64,000 nucleotides of DNA from Aquitalea aquatilis. Lineage in GTDB: Bacteria > Pseudomonadota > Gammaproteobacteria > Burkholderiales > Chromobacteriaceae. Made by a program: the position numbers and the translations under genes. Shown here piece by piece: positions 43,129 to 51,850 of this stretch (position 1 is the stretch's first letter; every line of letters starts with the position of its first letter). Under the pieces are notes generated by a model, which saw only the letters and a program-made list of their open reading frames with translations, was not told the origin of the DNA and did not search any database. Location: positions 3,100,001-3,164,000 of the forward strand of contig NZ_CP039731.1 in the NCBI RefSeq assembly GCF_005155025.1, written 5' to 3'.

Positions 43129-44133
43129 TCAGTTGCTGGCTTGCTGGTTGCGGATCAGCAGTAGCGATTCGCCACTGTGCATGATGACTTCCGGGTCTGG
43201 CGAAAACTCCACCTCGCCGGGGCTGCGCTCCAGCGCAATCACCATGGCCTTGCCATCGAAGCCATCCTTGAGAAAGCTGCCCAGCGGCTGGCCTTCCCAG
43301 CGCTCGTCCAGCACATGCACCTGGGCATGGAACTGGTTGGGATAGCGGTGGTGCAGGTGTTCGAAGAAGTGCAGGGTTTCCGGGTGGGCCACGATATTGG
43401 CCATATTCATGCCGCCCAGATGGGACGGGATCACCACATTGTCCGCGCCCACTGCCAATAGCTTCTTGCGCGAGCTTTCGTTTTCCGCCTTGGCCACGGC
43501 CAGTACCGTCGGGTTCAGGCTCTTGGCCGTTACCACCACAAAGGCGTTGTCGGCATCGGCACTCAGGCAGGAAATCAGGGCGCGGGCATGGGTAATGCCG
43601 GCGGCGCTGAGGTTTTCGTCTTCAGAAGCATCGCCGACGATGAAGGGCACATCACGCTCTTGCAGCAGGGCGATATTGGCTTCGTCCTTTTCGATGACGA
43701 CTACCTGATGGCGGGTACCCAGCAATTCTTCCAGCGCGTAGCGCCCGGTATGGCTCAGCCCGCAAATGATGGTGTGCTGGCGCATGCGCGCAATCAGTTT
43801 TTCCATTTTCTTTCGTCTCAGATAAAGCGGCAGGTCGCCCTGAAACAGCATCAGGGTGAGGGAGGAAATGCCATAACCGACCACGCCGGTGCCGAACACG
43901 ATCAGCGCAATGGTGAAATAGCGGCCTTCCAGCGACAGGTTGTGGGTTTCGCCATAGCCGATGGTGGCCAGCGTGATGACGGTCATGAACAGACTGTCGG
44001 AAAAGCTCCAGTCCTCGATCAACATGTAGCCGGAGGTGCCAAACAGCAGGGCGGCAAACACCAGGCTACTGAGGAACACGAGCTTACGCGGGAAACTGTG
44101 GCGCATGGGTGAGGAGGCTTGGAAAAGCGGCAT
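43129..44133 (-). CDS. Potassium channel with RCK (TrkA-N) domain
   Basis: The 334-residue protein has two membrane helices around a pore loop with selectivity filter 'TIGYGE' (near residue 58), then a cytoplasmic RCK domain starting 'HTIICGLSHTGRYALEELL' (Rossmann NAD-binding GxxxxG) with 'VIEKDEANIALL', and a C-terminal TrkA-C-like part. This is the MthK/Kch architecture; such channels let K+ pass under control of ligands bound to the RCK ring. ATG 44133 is used; ATG 44106 is equally open. It is monocistronic. Confidence 0.9.
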   Translation of the reverse strand: MPLFQASSPMRHSFPRKLVFLSSLVFAALLFGTSGYMLIEDWSFSDSLFMTVITLATIGYGETHNLSLEGRYFTIALIVFGTGVVGYGISSLTLMLFQGDLPLYLRRKKMEKLIARMRQHTIICGLSHTGRYALEELLGTRHQVVVIEKDEANIALLQERDVPFIVGDASEDENLSAAGITHARALISCLSADADNAFVVVTAKSLNPTVLAVAKAENESSRKKLLAVGADNVVIPSHLGGMNMANIVAHPETLHFFEHLHHRYPNQFHAQVHVLDERWEGQPLGSFLKDGFDGKAMVIALERSPGEVEFSPDPEVIMHSGESLLLIRNQQASN

Positions 44134-44425
44134 TATAGCTTGCTATCGCAGGATAAATGGATAGTTGTAGCGGAGTATTTTCACCGTGGTTTTCCCTTGG
44201 TTTACAGCAGGGCCGGATCCAGCGGCTCGCCGCCTAGTATTACCGGTAGGTGACATTACGCATTGCGTTCATTATGCAACACTCATAAACTGCTCGGTTT
44301 AAATTAAACGTAAATAGTGATTTCAGGAAAATTGATTTCCAGCGCGGGTGCTGCTGATCCGCACGCAGCTGCCATCAGGCTATGCCGGTTGCACTGGCGC
44401 AAAGATGAAGTCATGAACACACACT

Positions 44426-45397
44426 ATGAAACTGATTGCCACCGGAAAGGCGTTGCCAGAACAGTCGGTCAGCGCTGCCGATCTTGACCTGCGTCTGGGC
44501 TGTCGCCCGGGTGATTGCTTGCGCAAAAGCGGCGTGCATACCCGCTATTTTGCTGGCGAACAGGAGACACAGAGCGCACTGGCCGCGCGTGCCCTGCATG
44601 CGGCCCTGGACCATGCCGGGCTGGGCGTGGGGGATATCAATCTGTTGATTAGCGCATGTGGCATCCCCGAGCAGGCCCTGCCGGGGACAGCCTGTTTCAT
44701 CGCGCATGCCGCCGGCCTGCCCGCGGGAATGGCGGTGTTTGATGTCAATGCCAGCTGTCTGAGCTTTCTGAGTGCCTTGCAGGTGGCCGACAGCCTGCTG
44801 CAAAGCGGCGCCTACCGCCGCATTGCCATTGTTGCTGCCGATCTGGCCTCGCGTGGGCTGGACTGGAGCAATCCCGAAGCCTCGCTGATTTTCGGCGATG
44901 GTGCCGCCGCCGCCATCGTGGAGCGCGGAGAGCCGGGGCAGGGCCTGCGTGCTTTCCGGCTGGCCAGCTATCCGGAAGGGCGGCGCTATTGCGAAATCCG
45001 CGCCGGTGGCACCCAGTGCAATCCGCGCCGGGGGGCGGTGGCCAGCGATTTTCTGTTCAAGATGCAGGGCAAGGCCGTGTTCAAGCTGGCTTCGGAACGC
45101 ATGCCGGCCTTTATCGACGGCCTGCTGGCTGCCACGCCGGGTGGTCTGGACAGCATAGACTGGGTGTTGCCGCATCAGGCCAGCCATCTGGCCATGCAGC
45201 ATATGGCGAAAAAACTCGGCATCGGCCGTGAACGGGTTGTCGATATCTACGCCAGTCACGGTAATCAGGTGGCGGCGTCCTTGCCCACCGTACTGCATGA
45301 GGCCGTAGCCAGCGGGCGGGCCGTGCGCGGCCAGCGTCTGTTGATGCTGGGCACGGCGGCTGGGCTGAGCCTGGGCGGGCTGGTATGGGACTTATGA
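44426..45397 (+). CDS. 3-oxoacyl-ACP synthase III-like ketosynthase, first gene of a lipid pathway
   Basis: The 323-residue thiolase-fold enzyme has a complete KAS III triad: C111 in 'FDVNASCLSF', H250 in 'VLPHQAS' and N280 in 'YASHGNQVAAS'. 'GDGAAAAIVERG' is also a family mark. Such enzymes join an acyl starter to malonyl-ACP (FabH) or two acyl-CoAs (OleA). The extra histidine before Asn ('HGN' in place of the usual 'YGN') is unusual. It is not next to fabD, fabG or acpP, so a housekeeping role is unlikely. It overlaps the following reductase gene by ATGA. Confidence 0.85.
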   Translation: MKLIATGKALPEQSVSAADLDLRLGCRPGDCLRKSGVHTRYFAGEQETQSALAARALHAALDHAGLGVGDINLLISACGIPEQALPGTACFIAHAAGLPAGMAVFDVNASCLSFLSALQVADSLLQSGAYRRIAIVAADLASRGLDWSNPEASLIFGDGAAAAIVERGEPGQGLRAFRLASYPEGRRYCEIRAGGTQCNPRRGAVASDFLFKMQGKAVFKLASERMPAFIDGLLAATPGGLDSIDWVLPHQASHLAMQHMAKKLGIGRERVVDIYASHGNQVAASLPTVLHEAVASGRAVRGQRLLMLGTAAGLSLGGLVWDL

Positions 45398-46428
45398 AAC
45401 AGGTGCTGGTGACCGGTGCAACCGGAGGGCTGGGGCGCAATGCTGTGGCCATGCTACTGCAGCGTGGCTGTCGGGTCCGCGCCACCGGCCGCAAGCTGGA
45501 TATCGGCCGGCAACTGGTGGCGCAGGGGGCGGAGTTCCTGCAGCTGGATCTGGCGCTTGCCACCCGCGCGGAAATGGCCAGTCTGCTGCATGGCATCGAC
45601 ACGGTATGGCATTGTGCCGCCCTGTCTGCCCCCTGGGGAGCAGAGGCCGATTTCATCTCTGCCAATGTGCTGGCCACCGAGCGCCTGCTGCAGGCGGCTG
45701 GCGAGGCAGGCGTTAGCCATTTCGTGCATATTTCCACGCCAGCGCTGTATTTCGATTTTCAGCATCGCTGCCAGATTCCGGAAAGCTATCGCCCGCGGCA
45801 ATATGTCAACGCTTATGCCCGCAGCAAGGCACAGGCCGAGGACAAGGTGCAGCAGGCCGTGGCCCGTTATCCGGGTATGCGCTGCATCATCCTGCGGCCG
45901 CGTGCCATTTTCGGCGAATACGATCAGGTGCTGATCCCTCGCTTGGCGCGCTTGTTGCGCCGTCCGGGGGCGCGGCTGCCCTTGCCGCGAGGCGGCGCGG
46001 TGTTGTTGGACCTGACCTATGTCGGCAACGTCACCCATGCCATGTGGCTGGCCAGTTGTCAGCCCGGTCTGATCAGCGGCGAAGTGTTCAATATCACCAA
46101 TCAGCAGCCAGCCGTGCTCAAGCAAGTGCTGCAACAGCTGTTTGTCGAGGAGCTGGGCTGGCCGATGCGCATCGTCAGCCCGCCTTATCCTGTGCTGCAT
46201 TACGCCAGCCTGGCCTTGCAGTGGCTGTCACGGCTGAATGGGCGTGAGCCGGTTCTCACCCCTTACAGCCTGGGGGCTGTGCATTTCGACATGACGCTGG
46301 ACAACCGTCGCGCCTGCGAACGCCTGGCTTATGTTCCGCCCTACAGCATGCAAGAGGGCATACAGCGTACTGCGGACTGGCTGAGGGAGCAGGGGCTGAG
46401 GGAGCAGGCTGATGGCCAGATTGCATGA
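45394..46428 (+). CDS. NAD(P)-dependent extended SDR (3-beta-HSD / OleD-like) oxidoreductase
   Basis: The 344-residue Rossmann protein has 'VLVTGATGGLGRNAVAML' (TGxxGxxG), 'HISTPALYF' (catalytic Ser/Thr region) and 'YARSK' (YxxxK). 'WHCAALSAPWGAEADF' is typical of the 3-beta-hydroxysteroid-dehydrogenase/OleD group. OleD reduces the 2-alkyl-3-keto acid made by OleA, so it could reduce the product of the ketosynthase encoded just before. ATG 45394 overlaps the ketosynthase stop. It overlaps the next gene by 17 bp. Confidence 0.85.
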   Translation: MKQVLVTGATGGLGRNAVAMLLQRGCRVRATGRKLDIGRQLVAQGAEFLQLDLALATRAEMASLLHGIDTVWHCAALSAPWGAEADFISANVLATERLLQAAGEAGVSHFVHISTPALYFDFQHRCQIPESYRPRQYVNAYARSKAQAEDKVQQAVARYPGMRCIILRPRAIFGEYDQVLIPRLARLLRRPGARLPLPRGGAVLLDLTYVGNVTHAMWLASCQPGLISGEVFNITNQQPAVLKQVLQQLFVEELGWPMRIVSPPYPVLHYASLALQWLSRLNGREPVLTPYSLGAVHFDMTLDNRRACERLAYVPPYSMQEGIQRTADWLREQGLREQADGQIA

Positions 46429-47224
46429 GTTCAGCGTGGGTCATTGTACCCATCCGGCCTGCATGGCGCTCAAAGGGGCAGGGCTGGCCAGCCGCTGCTT
46501 TCCCTCGCGTGCTTATTTGATCGAAACCCGCGACCGCCTGCTGCTGTGGGACACCGGCTATGCCGAGCACTTTCATGCCGCCACGCGCCAGGGTGTCTAT
46601 CGCCTGTATCCGCTGGTGACCCCGGTGACTTTCAATGCGGCAGATGCCTTGTCAAGCCAGCTGCAGGCACGCGGTCTGGCCAGTCGCGATATCCATGCGC
46701 TGGTGTTGTCACACTTTCATGCCGACCATATCGCCGGCCTGCGCGACTTCCCTCAGGCCCAGTTATGGTGCTCGGCCACGGGCTGGCAGGCCGTGCGCGG
46801 TCTGTCTGGGCTTGCCGCATTGCGTCAGGCTTTTCTGCCTGCCTTGCTGCCCGCCGATATCGACAGCCGGCTGCACTTTGTCGAAGCGCTTGAGCTGCTT
46901 GAGCTGCCGGCGGAGCTGGCACCTTTCACCCACGCCCGCGATCTTTCCGGCAGTGGTGAGGTGCTGGTGGTGGACCTGCCCGGCCATGCGCCGGGGCATC
47001 TGGGCGCTTTTGTCCGCACCGAGCAGGGCTGGACCTTGCTGGCCTCGGATGCCGCCTGGGCCCGCGAAGGATTCCAGGACTTGCGCGGTCCTGCCGAGCT
47101 GACTTTCCTGATCCAGCATCAGCGTGCTGCCTACTACCAGACGCTGGGCCGGCTGCATGCCTTGTACCGCAATGGCTTGCATGATATTCGTCTGACACAC
47201 CAGCAAGAGGATGGCCCGGCATGA
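46412..47224 (+). CDS. Metallo-beta-lactamase-fold hydrolase (lactonase/thioesterase-like)
   Basis: The 270-residue protein carries the metal motif HxHxDH as 'LSHFHADHIAGLRD', an aspartate in 'LWDTGYAEHFH', and a later histidine in 'VDLPGHAPGHLGAF', a full two-metal set. The N-terminus 'FSVGHCTHPACMALKG' is not that of glyoxalase II or RNase Z; the closest resemblance is to AHL-lactonase-like hydrolases. In this operon it probably cleaves a thioester or lactone of the pathway intermediate. It overlaps the next gene by ATGA. Confidence 0.8.
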   Translation: MARLHEFSVGHCTHPACMALKGAGLASRCFPSRAYLIETRDRLLLWDTGYAEHFHAATRQGVYRLYPLVTPVTFNAADALSSQLQARGLASRDIHALVLSHFHADHIAGLRDFPQAQLWCSATGWQAVRGLSGLAALRQAFLPALLPADIDSRLHFVEALELLELPAELAPFTHARDLSGSGEVLVVDLPGHAPGHLGAFVRTEQGWTLLASDAAWAREGFQDLRGPAELTFLIQHQRAAYYQTLGRLHALYRNGLHDIRLTHQQEDGPA

Positions 47225-48510
47225 TGCGGCTACTGCGGGTGATGCTGGCCTACTGGCAGGCGCGGCGGCTGCAATTTCACGACCGGGCGGCGCTGGAACG
47301 CTATCAACAGCAGCAATTGGCGGTGTTTTGCCGTCGCCTGCAGCAGCGTAGCCCGTATTTTGCCGCGCTGGGCGACTTGCCGCTGGCGCAATGGCCGCGG
47401 ATGGACAAGGCGCTGATGCTGCAGCATTTCGACCAGATGAACAGCGCTGGCCTGCGGCTGGATGAGGTGATGCAGATCGCCCTGCGTGCTGAACACAGCC
47501 GGGATTTTGTTCCCACCATCGGCCCCTATACCGTGGGGCTGTCCTCCGGCACCACCGCACAGCGGGCGGCCTTTGTGGTGAGTCGGCGCGAGCAGGCGCA
47601 GTGGGCCGGCATCATGCTGGCGCGCGCCTTGCCGGATGGCCTGCTGGCGCGCGAGCGGGTGGCGCTGTTCCTGCGCGCCAACAGTAATCTCTACACCGCC
47701 GTGCGTAGCCGCTGGCTGACGTTTCGCTATTTCGACCTGTTCCGCCCGTTTGCCGAGCATCTGCCCTTGCTGGCCGATTATCAGCCCAGCATCTTGCTGG
47801 CACCGGCCCAGGTCTTGCGCGAACTGGCGCTGGCGCAGCTGCAAGGCCGCATCCGGCTACAGCCCAAGCGGGTGTACTCCATTGCCGAGGTGCTGGAAGC
47901 GCAGGACCGGCAGCTGATCGAACAGGCCTTCGGTGCCGTGCATGAAATCTATCAGGCGACCGAGGGTTTTCTCGCCAGCACCTGTGCCGCCGGGGTGTTG
48001 CATCTGAACGAGGAGTACCTGCATGTCGAACCGGAATGGCTGGATGACGCGCACCGCCGCTTCGTGCCGGTGATTACCGATTTCAGCCGCTATACCCAGC
48101 CCATCGTGCGCTACCGGCTGAACGACGTGCTGCTGGCGCGTGCCACGCCCTGCCCATGCGGGCGGGCCAGCATGGCGCTGGACGGAGTGGAGGGGCGCTG
48201 TGACGACATGCTGCTGCTGCCCGACCGCCACGGGCGGCCACAAACGGTGTTTGCCGACCTGCTTGGCCGTGCGCTGGCCCAGGTCTTGCCGTTTGATGCC
48301 GACTATCGTTTGCGCCAGACCGGTTCCTGCTCACTGACGCTGCATCTGGCGTTGCCGGAGCGGCAGCAGGTGGCCGTGCAGGCGCATCTGGAGCGCGTAC
48401 TGCAAGGCGCTGGCGTTGATGTGGCAGCGTTGCAGTGGCAGCACGAGCAGGCCTTGCCGCCGCTGGATACCAGCCGCAAGCGCCGGCGCATCATCCGGGA
48501 GCAGGCATGA
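47221..48510 (+). CDS. F390-synthetase-related adenylate-forming enzyme
   Basis: The 429-residue protein belongs to the ANL superfamily branch near coenzyme F390 synthetase and phenylacetate-CoA ligase. Motifs: 'VGLSSGTTAQRAAFVVS' (phosphate loop), 'IYQATEGFLAS' (adenine site), 'IVRYRLNDVL', and 'CPCGRASM', a zinc-knuckle-like pair seen in PaaK-type ligases. It should activate a carboxylic acid with ATP. F390 itself is archaeal, so the family name says nothing about substrate; an acyl chain is likely by context. It overlaps the PAP2 gene by ATGA. Confidence 0.82.
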   Translation: MMRLLRVMLAYWQARRLQFHDRAALERYQQQQLAVFCRRLQQRSPYFAALGDLPLAQWPRMDKALMLQHFDQMNSAGLRLDEVMQIALRAEHSRDFVPTIGPYTVGLSSGTTAQRAAFVVSRREQAQWAGIMLARALPDGLLARERVALFLRANSNLYTAVRSRWLTFRYFDLFRPFAEHLPLLADYQPSILLAPAQVLRELALAQLQGRIRLQPKRVYSIAEVLEAQDRQLIEQAFGAVHEIYQATEGFLASTCAAGVLHLNEEYLHVEPEWLDDAHRRFVPVITDFSRYTQPIVRYRLNDVLLARATPCPCGRASMALDGVEGRCDDMLLLPDRHGRPQTVFADLLGRALAQVLPFDADYRLRQTGSCSLTLHLALPERQQVAVQAHLERVLQGAGVDVAALQWQHEQALPPLDTSRKRRRIIREQA

Positions 48511-49127
48511 AGCGGCTGCTGCGCCAATTGCCGCCACGCTTGCGGCATCTGTTGCTGGGCTGGGGCTCGGTGGGCTGCGCTTATACCCTGGGCAGTCTGC
48601 GCAGCGGACCGGCCTGGGTGCTGCCAGAACTGGCCAGTGACCGCTTGCTGGCTTTCGATCCTGCGGCCATCTGGCTGTATCTGTCGTTTTTTCTGCTGGT
48701 TCCCGCTGCCTTTTGGCTGACGCCGCAGCAACGGCTGCGCTGGCTGCAACACGCCATGCAGTTGTCGGCATTGCTGGCCGGCCTGGTTTTCCTGTTGTGG
48801 CCTACCACGCTTGCCTATCCGCTAGTCGTGTCCGCGCCGTCGCACGGCTTGTTGCAGCTTTTGCTGCGCTTCGACACCCCGGGTAACTGTCTGCCGTCCT
48901 TGCATGGCGCACTGACCTGGCTGGCCTTGTGGGCGCTGTGGGATGACCGGCGGCCCTGGCGCAACATGCTGCTATTGCTGTGGGCGCTGGCCATCTTGCT
49001 GGCGGTCATCCAGCTGCGCCGCCATCTGACGCTGGACCTGGGCGCTGGCTTGTTGCTTGGTCTGTTGAGTGGCTGGCTGGCGGCCCGTCCTGTTCTGCAT
49101 TCTTTTTTTCGGTATCGTTGCGCATGA
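48507..49127 (+). CDS. PAP2-superfamily membrane phosphatase/transferase (AUR1-like)
   Basis: The 206-residue protein has about five to six membrane helices with PAP2 motifs 'NCLPSLHGALTW' (PSLH) and 'LRRHLTLDLGAG' (HxxxD). The pattern is nearer inositol-phosphotransferase/AUR1-type PAP2 proteins than the KxxxxxxRP-type lipid phosphatases; a clear first motif is not seen. It may remove phosphate from, or transfer a phospho-head group to, the lipid product. It overlaps both neighbours by ATGA. Confidence 0.72.
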   Translation: MKRLLRQLPPRLRHLLLGWGSVGCAYTLGSLRSGPAWVLPELASDRLLAFDPAAIWLYLSFFLLVPAAFWLTPQQRLRWLQHAMQLSALLAGLVFLLWPTTLAYPLVVSAPSHGLLQLLLRFDTPGNCLPSLHGALTWLALWALWDDRRPWRNMLLLLWALAILLAVIQLRRHLTLDLGAGLLLGLLSGWLAARPVLHSFFRYRCA

Positions 49128-50215
49128 ATGTATTTGCCCTGACTTTTGCCCTGATGCTGGCCATCGTGCTGCTGGAACTGCTGGCCTTGCGCTACTGGCG
49201 CAAGGAGGCCATTCCCTGGCATGAAATCGTGTTCAACCTGAATTCCGGCCATATCCTGATGTGGGCGCTGCGCGGCGTCGAGGTGGCGATGTTTGGCTGG
49301 CTGCTGACCCATGCCAACCTGCATCTGGTGGATCGCTTGCCGCTCTATGCCCAGTGGCTGGTGGCCATCGTCGGCTGGGATCTCAGCTTTTACTGCATGC
49401 ACCGCGCCCATCACCGCTGGCCGCTGCTGTGGGCAGTACATCGCGTGCATCATCAGGGTGAGCATTTCAGCCTGTCGCTGGGCATTCGCAATTCCTGGTA
49501 TTCCTCGCTCACTTCGCTGCTGTTCGTGGCACCGCTGGCGGTGCTGGGCCTGCCGCTGGAGCTGTTTGTCGCTGCTTCCTCGTTTCATTACGCGGTACAG
49601 TTGTACAACCATAATGCCTTTGTCGGCCGTTCCGGCTGGCTGGAGGGGCTGCTGGTGACCCCGGCCGCGCACCGGGTGCATCACGCCACCCATCCGCTTT
49701 ATCTGAACCGCAACTTTGGCGGCACCTTTCTGCTGTGGGACCGCTGCTTCGGCAGTTACCAGCCGCCGCGCGACTATGTGCCGCTGGTGTATGGCGTGCC
49801 GGGCAGTGCCGCGTCCTTCAACCCGCTACTGGCCAGCAATCCCTGGCTGGCGGCCTGGTCGGATCGCTGGTGGCCAGCAAGCAGGGCAGGTGAGGGCTGG
49901 CAGATCAGTGGCCCTTATATTGCCAGCGGTGCGGTGGTGCTGTTTGGCTGGGTGATTTACTACGTGCAGATGGCCGGCGGCTTCTCGCCCTGGCAGCAGT
50001 GGAGCCTGTTTGGCGGCTTGCTGGCCGGTACGCTGGCCCTGGGTGCGATGTCGGATCGGCAGCGGCGTGGCTGGCAGGCATGGCAGGCCCTGGCGCTGGG
50101 GCTGCCCTTGGTTTGTGTGCTACTGGGCCTGCGTGATGCCGCAGCGCTGATACTGTCAGCACTATTGCTGTTGCATGGCGTGTTGGGCTGGCGTCGCGCG
50201 GAGGGAGCGGCATGA
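49124..50215 (+). CDS. Sterol-desaturase-family (fatty-acid hydroxylase) di-iron membrane enzyme
   Basis: The 363-residue protein has several membrane helices and the His clusters of the family: 'CMHRAHHRWPLLWAVHRVHH' (two HxxHH boxes) and 'TPAAHRVHHATHPLY' (third). These bind two irons and hydroxylate or desaturate lipid chains. The C-terminal 100 residues add three further hydrophobic stretches, more than the simplest family members have. It is overlapped by both neighbours, supporting a shared membrane lipid substrate. Confidence 0.85.
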   Translation: MNVFALTFALMLAIVLLELLALRYWRKEAIPWHEIVFNLNSGHILMWALRGVEVAMFGWLLTHANLHLVDRLPLYAQWLVAIVGWDLSFYCMHRAHHRWPLLWAVHRVHHQGEHFSLSLGIRNSWYSSLTSLLFVAPLAVLGLPLELFVAASSFHYAVQLYNHNAFVGRSGWLEGLLVTPAAHRVHHATHPLYLNRNFGGTFLLWDRCFGSYQPPRDYVPLVYGVPGSAASFNPLLASNPWLAAWSDRWWPASRAGEGWQISGPYIASGAVVLFGWVIYYVQMAGGFSPWQQWSLFGGLLAGTLALGAMSDRQRRGWQAWQALALGLPLVCVLLGLRDAAALILSALLLLHGVLGWRRAEGAA

Positions 50216-51291
50216 GTCAGCTGCGTTTTCAGTCTTCCCGGCAACTGGCGTTCCGACTGGCGCTGCAGCAGGCGGCGCAGGACTATCTGGCCACCCAGGG
50301 TGGTCACCGCTACGCCGGACTTGGCATTGCCGGCAAGGCGGCAGTGCTGGGCGGCTTGAGCCTCTACTGTTATTGGCAGGCCTTGCATGCCACGCACGCG
50401 GGTAGCTTTGCCGCAGCCTACATCGCCGCATTTGTGCTGGCCATGCTGCTGGCGATGAACAGCCTGCATGATGCTGCGCATGGTGCGGTGTTCCGTTCTG
50501 CCGGCCTCAATCGCTTGCTGGCACGGCTGACCAGCCTGCCGATGGGGGTGGATGCCGACATCTGGACCCGTCGTCATGTTCATCTGCACCATACCTACCC
50601 CAATGTCGAAGAATACGATCTGGACATCGAGCCCAATCCCTTCTTGCGGCAGACGCCGTTCCAGGCCTGGGCCGTGCAGTATCGCTGGCAGCATCGCTAC
50701 TGGCCGCTGATTGCTGCCTTGTCCTTGCCTTATCTGTGCTGGTATGGCGACTGGCTCGACTGGTTGGGCAGGAGCAAGCTGCGGCTGCGTGATGCACGGC
50801 CTATCAATACGCCACATTTTCTGGCCAGCAAGGCCGCCCATGTGCTGCTGGCGCTGGGGCTGCCGTTGTGGCTGCTGCAGGGCAGCGCCATTGGCTGGGG
50901 CACGGTGCTGCTGTGTTATGTGGCCGGGCAGATGCTGGCTTCCTGTTTTCTGGTGGCCATGATTCTTGGCACGCACTGGGCTGATGTGGCGTTTTTCCAG
51001 CCGGATGCTGACGGCCGCTTGCCGCATACCTGGCATGAGCACCAGTTTCTCACCTGTTGCGACTGGCTGCCGGCACCTGCCTGGCTTGGCGGCTTGCTTG
51101 GCGGACTGCATCTGCACCTGACCCATCACCTGTTTCCGGCCTACAGCCATCGCCACTATCCGGCGCTGGCCCGCATCGTGCAGCAGCAGGCGGCGGCACA
51201 TGGCCTGCCTTATCGCTGCCTCAGTTATCCGCAGCTATGGCGGGCGCAGCAGCGCTTTCTGCGTGCGATGGGGGCGAAGCCGCACGCATGA
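50212..51291 (+). CDS. Fatty-acid desaturase, last gene of the lipid operon
   Basis: The 359-residue membrane protein has the three desaturase His boxes: 'LHDAAHGAVF' (HDxxH), 'RRHVHLHHTYPN' (HxxHH) and 'LHLTHHLFPAYSHRHY' (HxxHH). They place it in the acyl-lipid desaturase/ketolase group of membrane di-iron enzymes. It probably introduces a double bond in the operon product or its acyl chain. No terminator is obvious in the 140 bp that follow. Confidence 0.87.
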   Translation: MSQLRFQSSRQLAFRLALQQAAQDYLATQGGHRYAGLGIAGKAAVLGGLSLYCYWQALHATHAGSFAAAYIAAFVLAMLLAMNSLHDAAHGAVFRSAGLNRLLARLTSLPMGVDADIWTRRHVHLHHTYPNVEEYDLDIEPNPFLRQTPFQAWAVQYRWQHRYWPLIAALSLPYLCWYGDWLDWLGRSKLRLRDARPINTPHFLASKAAHVLLALGLPLWLLQGSAIGWGTVLLCYVAGQMLASCFLVAMILGTHWADVAFFQPDADGRLPHTWHEHQFLTCCDWLPAPAWLGGLLGGLHLHLTHHLFPAYSHRHYPALARIVQQQAAAHGLPYRCLSYPQLWRAQQRFLRAMGAKPHA

Positions 51292-51433
51292 GCGCATAGC
51301 GCAGCGGCCCGGCGGTTTTTGTGTGCAGATGTGTAGCAGGGTGGGGCGGGCAATAGTTCTTCACACTGTTTTACAAGCGGTTACCTGCCATTGATTAATC
51401 TGGACTGGTATCAACGCACTGGAGGTCCAGTCC

Positions 51434-51850
51434 ATGAAAACCCGAATCCTGATCCCCGCGCTGCTGGCGCTTTCCTTCACCGGCATGGCTTATGCCGATT
51501 CTTCTGCCATTCTGGGTGGTGCACTTGGCGGTGCGGTGGGTGCTGCCGTCGGCCAATCCATCGGCGGCCGTAACGGTGCCATCATCGGCGGCGCGGTGGG
51601 CGGCAGCGTTGGTACCGCGCTGGCCTACCAGCGTGATGACTACCGCGACTACCGGCCGGCGCCGGCCCCGGTGCCGGTTTACCAGCCGGTGACCTATGTT
51701 GCCCCCGTGCGCTATGTCGAGCCGCCGCGCTATCCGCACTGGCATGAGGACCGGCACGGGCAATACCGCGACTGGCATGATCGCGAATGGCATGACCGTG
51801 GCTGGCATGGCCGCGACGGGCGCGATGGCTATTATCGTCACGGCGATTGA
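51434..51850 (+). CDS. Exported glycine-zipper protein with Trp/His/Asp-rich tail
   Basis: The 138-residue protein has a signal peptide (cleavage near 'GMAYA-DSS'), a glycine-zipper membrane-like segment ('GGALGGAVGAAVGQSIGG', 'GAIIGGAVGGSVG'), a Pro/Tyr-rich linker, and a tail of repeated 'DWHDREWHDRGWHGRDG' units that could bind metal. Similar glycine-zipper 2TM proteins sit in the outer membrane or periplasm; function is unknown. TGGAGG at 51419-51424 precedes ATG 51434. A terminator follows. Confidence 0.8.
   Translation: MKTRILIPALLALSFTGMAYADSSAILGGALGGAVGAAVGQSIGGRNGAIIGGAVGGSVGTALAYQRDDYRDYRPAPAPVPVYQPVTYVAPVRYVEPPRYPHWHEDRHGQYRDWHDREWHDRGWHGRDGRDGYYRHGD

Follow-up and report, generated by a model that had tools for sequence, protein, structure and literature searches.

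The described gene sets closest to the one considered here are the OleABCD and lipstatin (LstABCD) clusters, which likewise bring together a KAS III-type condensing enzyme, an OleD-like reductase of the short-chain dehydrogenase/reductase (SDR) type and an AMP-forming enzyme, and some relatives of which, as of the present set, add glycosyltransferase or non-ribosomal peptide synthetase (NRPS) genes, an NRPS being part of the lipstatin system. Parts are shared with three further systems: the finishing enzymes of sphingolipid synthesis (AUR1 or inositol phosphorylceramide (IPC) synthase, sphingomyelin synthase (SMS) and SMSr, Sur2/Scs7 and ceramide glucosyltransferase), OlsE-type hydroxylation of ornithine lipids, and the Pseudomonas quinolone signal (PQS) operon PqsA-E together with CorB and MxnB, where KAS III also goes with a metallo-beta-lactamase-type (MBL) hydrolase and a ligase. 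Here we analyse seven intact, overlapping genes at positions 44426-51291, on the + strand, of a 64,000-nucleotide stretch of the genome of Aquitalea aquatilis (the window; the genome is one contig of 4.36 Mb and Aquitalea belongs to the Chromobacteriaceae). They encode, in order, a ketosynthase (KS3), an SDR, an MBL hydrolase, a PaaK-type ligase related to coenzyme F390 synthetase (F390), a PAP2-family membrane protein (PAP2), a fatty-acid hydroxylase (FAH) and a fatty-acid desaturase (FAD). We lean, somewhat beyond the balance, towards reading them as an accessory membrane-lipid operon, in which a fixed soluble core (KS3 to F390) and a swappable tail would make a lipid scaffold plus its head group.

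The likeness to each described system is partial. Compared with OleABCD, KS3 scores higher with MxnB/CorB and FabH than with OleA, the ligase is of the PaaK rather than the AMP-binding OleC type, OleB is missing, and an MBL hydrolase and an AUR1-like PAP2 are added. With the sphingolipid finishing enzymes the set shares the PAP2 fold, the hydroxylase and desaturase families and, in enterobacterial and Fusobacterium relatives, a GT21 glycosyltransferase, but its scaffold would come from the KAS III core, no serine palmitoyltransferase (SPT) was found in the host and the transferase activity of PAP2 is a prediction. FAH has OlsE as its best NCBIfam match, at 64.5 bits well below the cut-off of 475, so that it is not counted as a member, and in contrast to the ornithine lipid pathway no OlsA/OlsB-type acyltransferase is among the seven. 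Unlike PQS and CorB/MxnB, the set has a single KAS III, no polyketide synthase and membrane lipid enzymes instead. Each enzyme is from a known family. No description of their joining in one set, of its fixed core or of the swapping of tails was found in open-licence papers, although one may exist elsewhere; the first-pass annotation of this stretch, made from its letters, had likewise known of no pathway with exactly this set. Coenzyme F390 synthetase is mentioned in PMC9823363, PMC5467263 and PMC5501837, in passages that describe no operon; the first of these tabulates a transposon mutant of such a gene in Pseudomonas syringae pv. actinidiae.

Conserved core and exchangeable tails

Relatives were gathered by scanning the F390 alignment against one genome per species, which gave 553, and the best 80 were kept, a sample biased towards the window's kind. 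A wider set of 93 loci comprises these 80 named loci, E. coli CFT073, ten plasmid records (L121-L130) and two genomes of another class (L036 and L037, the sole loci counted from a set of nine); the E. coli Nissle and KE48 copies were excluded as near-duplicates. KS3, SDR, MBL and F390 follow one another in this order in 75 of the 80 best-matching loci and in 83/93 of the wider set, PAP2 directly follows F390 in 72/80, in most cases together with FAH and either a single FAD gene or two, and all seven genes stand in the window's order in 61/80. The five exceptions to the core order are L066 and L073, without KS3, L092, without KS3 and without a tail, L082, where a contig end cuts the locus, and L090, where the MBL match is split in two. 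Distances between the core proteins correlate at 0.93-0.96 and those between core and tail proteins at 0.71-0.91 (61 sequences less than 90% identical, 37-59 shared per pair), the highest value in any pair under 200 label shuffles per pair being 0.42. Since the core order is conserved and the proteins diverge in step, the unit is more than a chance grouping. A gene-neighbourhood search had been proposed in the first-pass annotation; by these counts the set it described is real but not unique in its exact form, being widespread, present in E. coli, fixed in its first four genes and variable in its tail.

In L066 and L073, both of the Burkholderia group, a desaturase occupies the place of KS3, and there is no KS3 in the locus DNA examined. 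Two large plasmids, Pseudomonas pBASL58 (L127) and pMPPla107 (L123), have F390 near an ATP-grasp relative; on pBASL58 the KS3, SDR and MBL genes are dispersed among hypothetical genes. A scan of viral contigs found no relative, and a search of the class to which genome G115 belongs gave a match in G115 alone (1/240).

An unnamed operon of E. coli CFT073 (C_RS07890 to C_RS07920) has the seven genes in the window's order, with proteins 44-54% identical to those of the window (tblastn), and differs in its site, between narGHJI and a tRNA-Tyr pair, where the same seven genes also lie in Nissle 1917; the papers searched name no product for it. In 671/5426 complete E. coli genomes a match spans 80% or more of this operon, and coverage is 100% in Nissle 1917 and ATCC 25922. 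Judged from its designation and position, the first gene of the operon is c1689, the only experimental trace met in the papers searched: it is listed among the candidate fitness genes of a transposon screen (PMC3855560), whose passages on it report no follow-up. Two other E. coli records are irregular: in strain S7 (NZ_CP107128.1) the operon match covers no more than 70% at one place, a second match lying elsewhere in the record, and the copy looks interrupted, while the 385 kb 'plasmid' of KE48 (NZ_CP141085.1), which has housekeeping genes as well as narGHJI and the operon, looks like a misfiled chromosomal segment.

Beside the same core, other relatives carry other tails. The genes SDR2-GT21-ELM1-like-GT1 are found in Leclercia, Citrobacter, Cedecea, Superficieibacter and an uncultured enterobacterium, SDR2-GT21-GT1 without the ELM1-like gene in Klebsiella and SDR2-GT21 only in Ewingella; GT1 scores under its family cut-offs, and ELM1-like is our presumptive label for a protein named by no family scan. 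Across the 93 loci, GT21 occurs in eight, Fusobacterium counted, a protein with adenylation and carrier domains (NRPS) in two (L063 and L065, the carrier match of the latter under cut-off), an ATP-grasp protein in nine, six of them with a GNAT and four with a Rieske protein, and a divergent sulfotransferase in two. A shorter, partial NRPS homologue without domain matches in L067 and an upstream NRPS-search match in L066 that looks like an acid-CoA ligase were left uncounted. In Aquitalea aquatica the seven genes are joined, at the same site, by a divergent Rieske-GNAT-ATP-grasp trio (L038 3708-6990); the trio is missing at the window's site, and its ATP-grasp family has no match in the window's genome.

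Because the tails swap beside one core, a common scaffold with interchangeable head groups is the simplest reading, and the glycosyl, sulfo, aminoacyl and phospho modules would then be head groups attached to a free hydroxyl or carboxyl of the scaffold. In the anaerobe Fusobacterium vincentii (L128), a re-ordered core (SDR, MBL, F390, KS3) adjoins a GT21 relative, and the 19 kb examined contain no match to PAP2, FAH or FAD, which suggests that the product there is a glycolipid. The whole trio, or some of its genes, also accompanies the core in L036, L037, Shinella, Paraburkholderia, Uliginosibacterium and Bacilli.

Core and tail enzymes

Residue conservation was counted over stop-free homologues longer than 75% of the window protein, window included, taking the better-scoring copy where there are two desaturases; the catalytic roles of the residues are those known from their families. 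KS3 matches PF08541 with 87.9 bits (cut-off 26.6), and its Cys-His-Asn triad (Table 1) is conserved in 89/89; it scores 336.9 bits against PRK07204, below the cut-off of 402, which a Pontibacillus homologue passes (444.9). A third KAS III-type gene of the window's genome (G000:C1:354305-354574, L003) is distinct from both KS3 and the gene that best matches PF08541. The SDR residues S117, Y144 and K148 (numbered from the 45385 start) are conserved in 90/90. The MBL protein matches PF00753 with 57.7 bits (cut-off 22.7) and keeps seven metal ligands, H101, H103, D105, H106, H192, D213 and H263, in 91/91. It resembles AiiA-type lactonases, yet has Trp216 at the AiiA Tyr position in 90/91. That Tyr, after the DAS motif, has a catalytic role in AiiA; with the Trp in its place and 57.3 bits against a cut-off of 375, MBL was rejected as an AiiA-type acyl-homoserine lactone lactonase.

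F390 scores 492.7 bits against the F390 synthetase-related family TIGR02304, above the cut-off of 251.9, and its lysine (Table 1) is conserved in 94/94. No Pfam family matches at E 0.001, AMP-binding (PF00501) included. Its predicted model has the PaaK fold, the nearest structures in Foldseek being BT_0428, NatL2, AjiA1 and PaaK1, and since the fold is of this kind, F390 likely adenylates a carboxylate; the product may be a thioester, ester, amide or lactone.

Among the tail enzymes, PAP2 matches PAP2_3 (PF14378) with 29.6 bits (cut-off 27) and keeps its His-His-Asp residues (Table 1) in 76/76, FAH matches FA_hydroxylase with 86.4 bits (cut-off 31) and FAD matches FA_desaturase with 99.9 bits (cut-off 29.7), the eight histidines of the boxes being conserved in 71/71 in each of the last two. 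The earlier remark that catalytic residues are intact is borne out for every position checked. Sequence searches with PAP2, FAH and FAD against solved structures gave no match. A predicted model of PAP2 (pLDDT 92.4) has as its first three solved structures IPC synthase, SMSr and Aur1-Kei1 (Foldseek, E above 0.001), all ceramide head-group transferases, in keeping with the AUR1-like label given to the gene at first.

Proposed route and its alternatives

How could these enzymes work together? KS3 would join an acyl thioester with a malonyl-type unit, and SDR would reduce the 3-oxo group to a hydroxyl, so that a 3-hydroxy long-chain thioester would result. MBL might release the acid, or open an ester or lactone, and F390 would re-activate the carboxylate as an acyl-AMP. 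PAP2 would transfer a phospho-head group to the hydroxyl of the scaffold, the simplest donor being phosphatidylethanolamine or phosphatidylglycerol, and the di-iron enzymes FAH and FAD would hydroxylate and desaturate the chain. We infer both the scaffold chemistry and the head-group transfer, as we do the substrates, the order of steps, the beta-hydroxy nature of the scaffold and the identity of both donor and head group. What the evidence supports, as the first-pass annotation had it, is a lipid pathway of unknown product. If the membrane-lipid proposal is right, well-studied bacteria, among them a probiotic and a reference test strain of E. coli, have a whole class of accessory membrane lipid that has so far escaped notice, the swappable tails offer enzymes for head-group engineering, and AUR1/sphingomyelin synthase has a bacterial cousin.

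A bolder form of the proposal, which we judge less likely than not, is that the KAS III/OleD-like/MBL/PaaK core makes a nitrogen-free long-chain hydroxy backbone for a sphingolipid-like class formed without SPT, with exchangeable phospho, glycosyl, aminoacyl or sulfo heads; the genes for it would then be present in roughly an eighth of the complete E. coli genomes, that of Nissle 1917 included.

Rather unlikely, in our estimate, is a diffusible signal or antibiotic-type metabolite, for which F390 would load an aryl or alkyl acid, KS3 extend it and MBL act as thioesterase, as in Pqs chemistry, or for which KS3 would form a pyrone, as CorB and MxnB do by joining two carrier-bound beta-keto chains. 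The solved structures nearest to KS3 are indeed 4v2p (186 bits), which we take to be MxnB, and CorB (4yuc, 175 bits), ahead of FabH (166 bits), and with these two KS3 shares a Q-A-x-P motif that neither of the two FabH rows compared shows; the solved relatives of F390 include the aryl-acid ligases NatL2, PaaK1 and ClxA, and also a 2-hydroxyisobutyryl-CoA ligase. Against this, a membrane lipid is indicated by three membrane lipid enzymes, PAP2 with its full-length AUR1/SMS-like fold and the chain-oxidising di-iron pair FAH and FAD, and the Pfam scan found no polyketide synthase among the seven proteins.

The same scan found no alpha/beta hydrolase among the seven, in agreement with the earlier statement that OleB is lacking, a point that bears on a route like that of OleABCD or lipstatin, in which KS3 would join two acyl chains, SDR reduce the product, F390 close a beta-lactone in the manner of OleC and MBL, replacing OleB, open or process it. 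The four reaction types would be equal, and the best NCBIfam match of SDR is OleD, at 129.5 bits far under the cut-off of 580, so that SDR is OleD-like and not a member. PMC7064751 reports beta-lactones from oleACD clusters without oleB, predicts a glycosylated one for a cluster that includes a glycosyltransferase, and gives Glu-Pro at position 117 for all OleA proteins but two. KS3 has an invariant Q-x-L/I-P, the residue before the proline being Leu or Ile in 89/89 and Glu in none, although the position set against the OleA Glu-Pro is inferred, with no OleA in the alignment. The entries that we take to be OleA score only 61-68 bits with KS3 against 186 for the best. F390, with its PaaK-type fold and no PF00501 match, was rejected as an OleC; OleC is not named among the 50 Foldseek matches listed, though the two may share a fold. 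The resemblance to OleABCD noted at first is supported only in part, and we regard this route as improbable.

About equally improbable is that PAP2 is an ordinary lipid phosphatase, the operon remodelling or degrading existing pools of phospholipid or hydroxy fatty acid. LpxE, PgpB, LPP1 and other PAP2 phosphatases do match the model, and LpxE is less than one Z unit behind its best match. However, the phosphatases align over 149-179 residues and the ceramide enzymes over 190-200, and KS3, with its conserved triad, is a condensing enzyme; on this modelling a head-group transferase is favoured over a phosphatase.

True sphingolipid synthesis is very improbable: PAP2 is AUR1/SMS-like, a desaturase is present, relatives have GT21 and the hydroxylase family holds Sur2/Scs7, but ordinary sphingolipids are unlikely in the host because Kbl and BioF account for its two full-length alpha-oxoamine synthases, each above its own cut-off and under all three SPT cut-offs, a third match being weak (18.8 bits).

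The locus and its empty sites

Within Aquitalea the operon is accessory and not essential. The TIGR02304 cut-off is exceeded in 4/61 genomes searched as relatives (own included), in 2/10 of the genus and in 7/398 of the phylum, own included, and the operon is absent from 8/10 same-genus genomes. In six of these eight the site could be compared, and it is clean in 6/6 (one genome is only 61% complete): the potassium-channel gene and the glycine-zipper gene adjoin, homology breaks off at 44139/44140 and picks up again at 51319-51357. The other two, outside this comparison, are G002, with its channel gene at a contig end, and G009, with no channel match.

Table 1. Features of the operon and of the segment that carries it (window coordinates)
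Feature	Position	Strand	Details
KS3, KAS III-type ketosynthase	44426..45397	+	323 aa; PF08541/PF08545; Cys111, His250, Asn280
SDR, extended 3-beta-HSD/OleD-like reductase	45394..46428	+	PF01370/PF01073
MBL, di-metal hydrolase	46412..47224	+	270 aa; PF00753
F390, PaaK-type AMP-forming carboxylate ligase (probable)	47221..48510	+	429 aa; TIGR02304; Lys420
PAP2, helical membrane protein, predicted AUR1/SMS-like fold	48507..49127	+	206 aa; PF14378; His133, His173, Asp177
FAH, sterol-desaturase-type di-iron fatty-acid hydroxylase	49124..50215	+	363 aa; PF04116
FAD, di-iron fatty-acid desaturase	50212..51291	+	359 aa; PF00487
Accessory segment	44140..51319	.	absent as a unit from six genomes of the genus; right-hand boundary within 51319-51357

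The seven reading frames are all open where the first-pass annotation had placed them, and family scans match all seven of its labels. We read the SDR start as 45394, 9 bp downstream of that given by the open reading frame caller (45385); with this start the junctions are five ATGA overlaps and one of 17 bp (SDR/MBL), in line with the overlaps first described. No sigma-70-like promoter was found in 44100-51500, which is weak as evidence. The GC content is 64% in the operon, 60% in the window and 62-64% in the 10-kb flanks.

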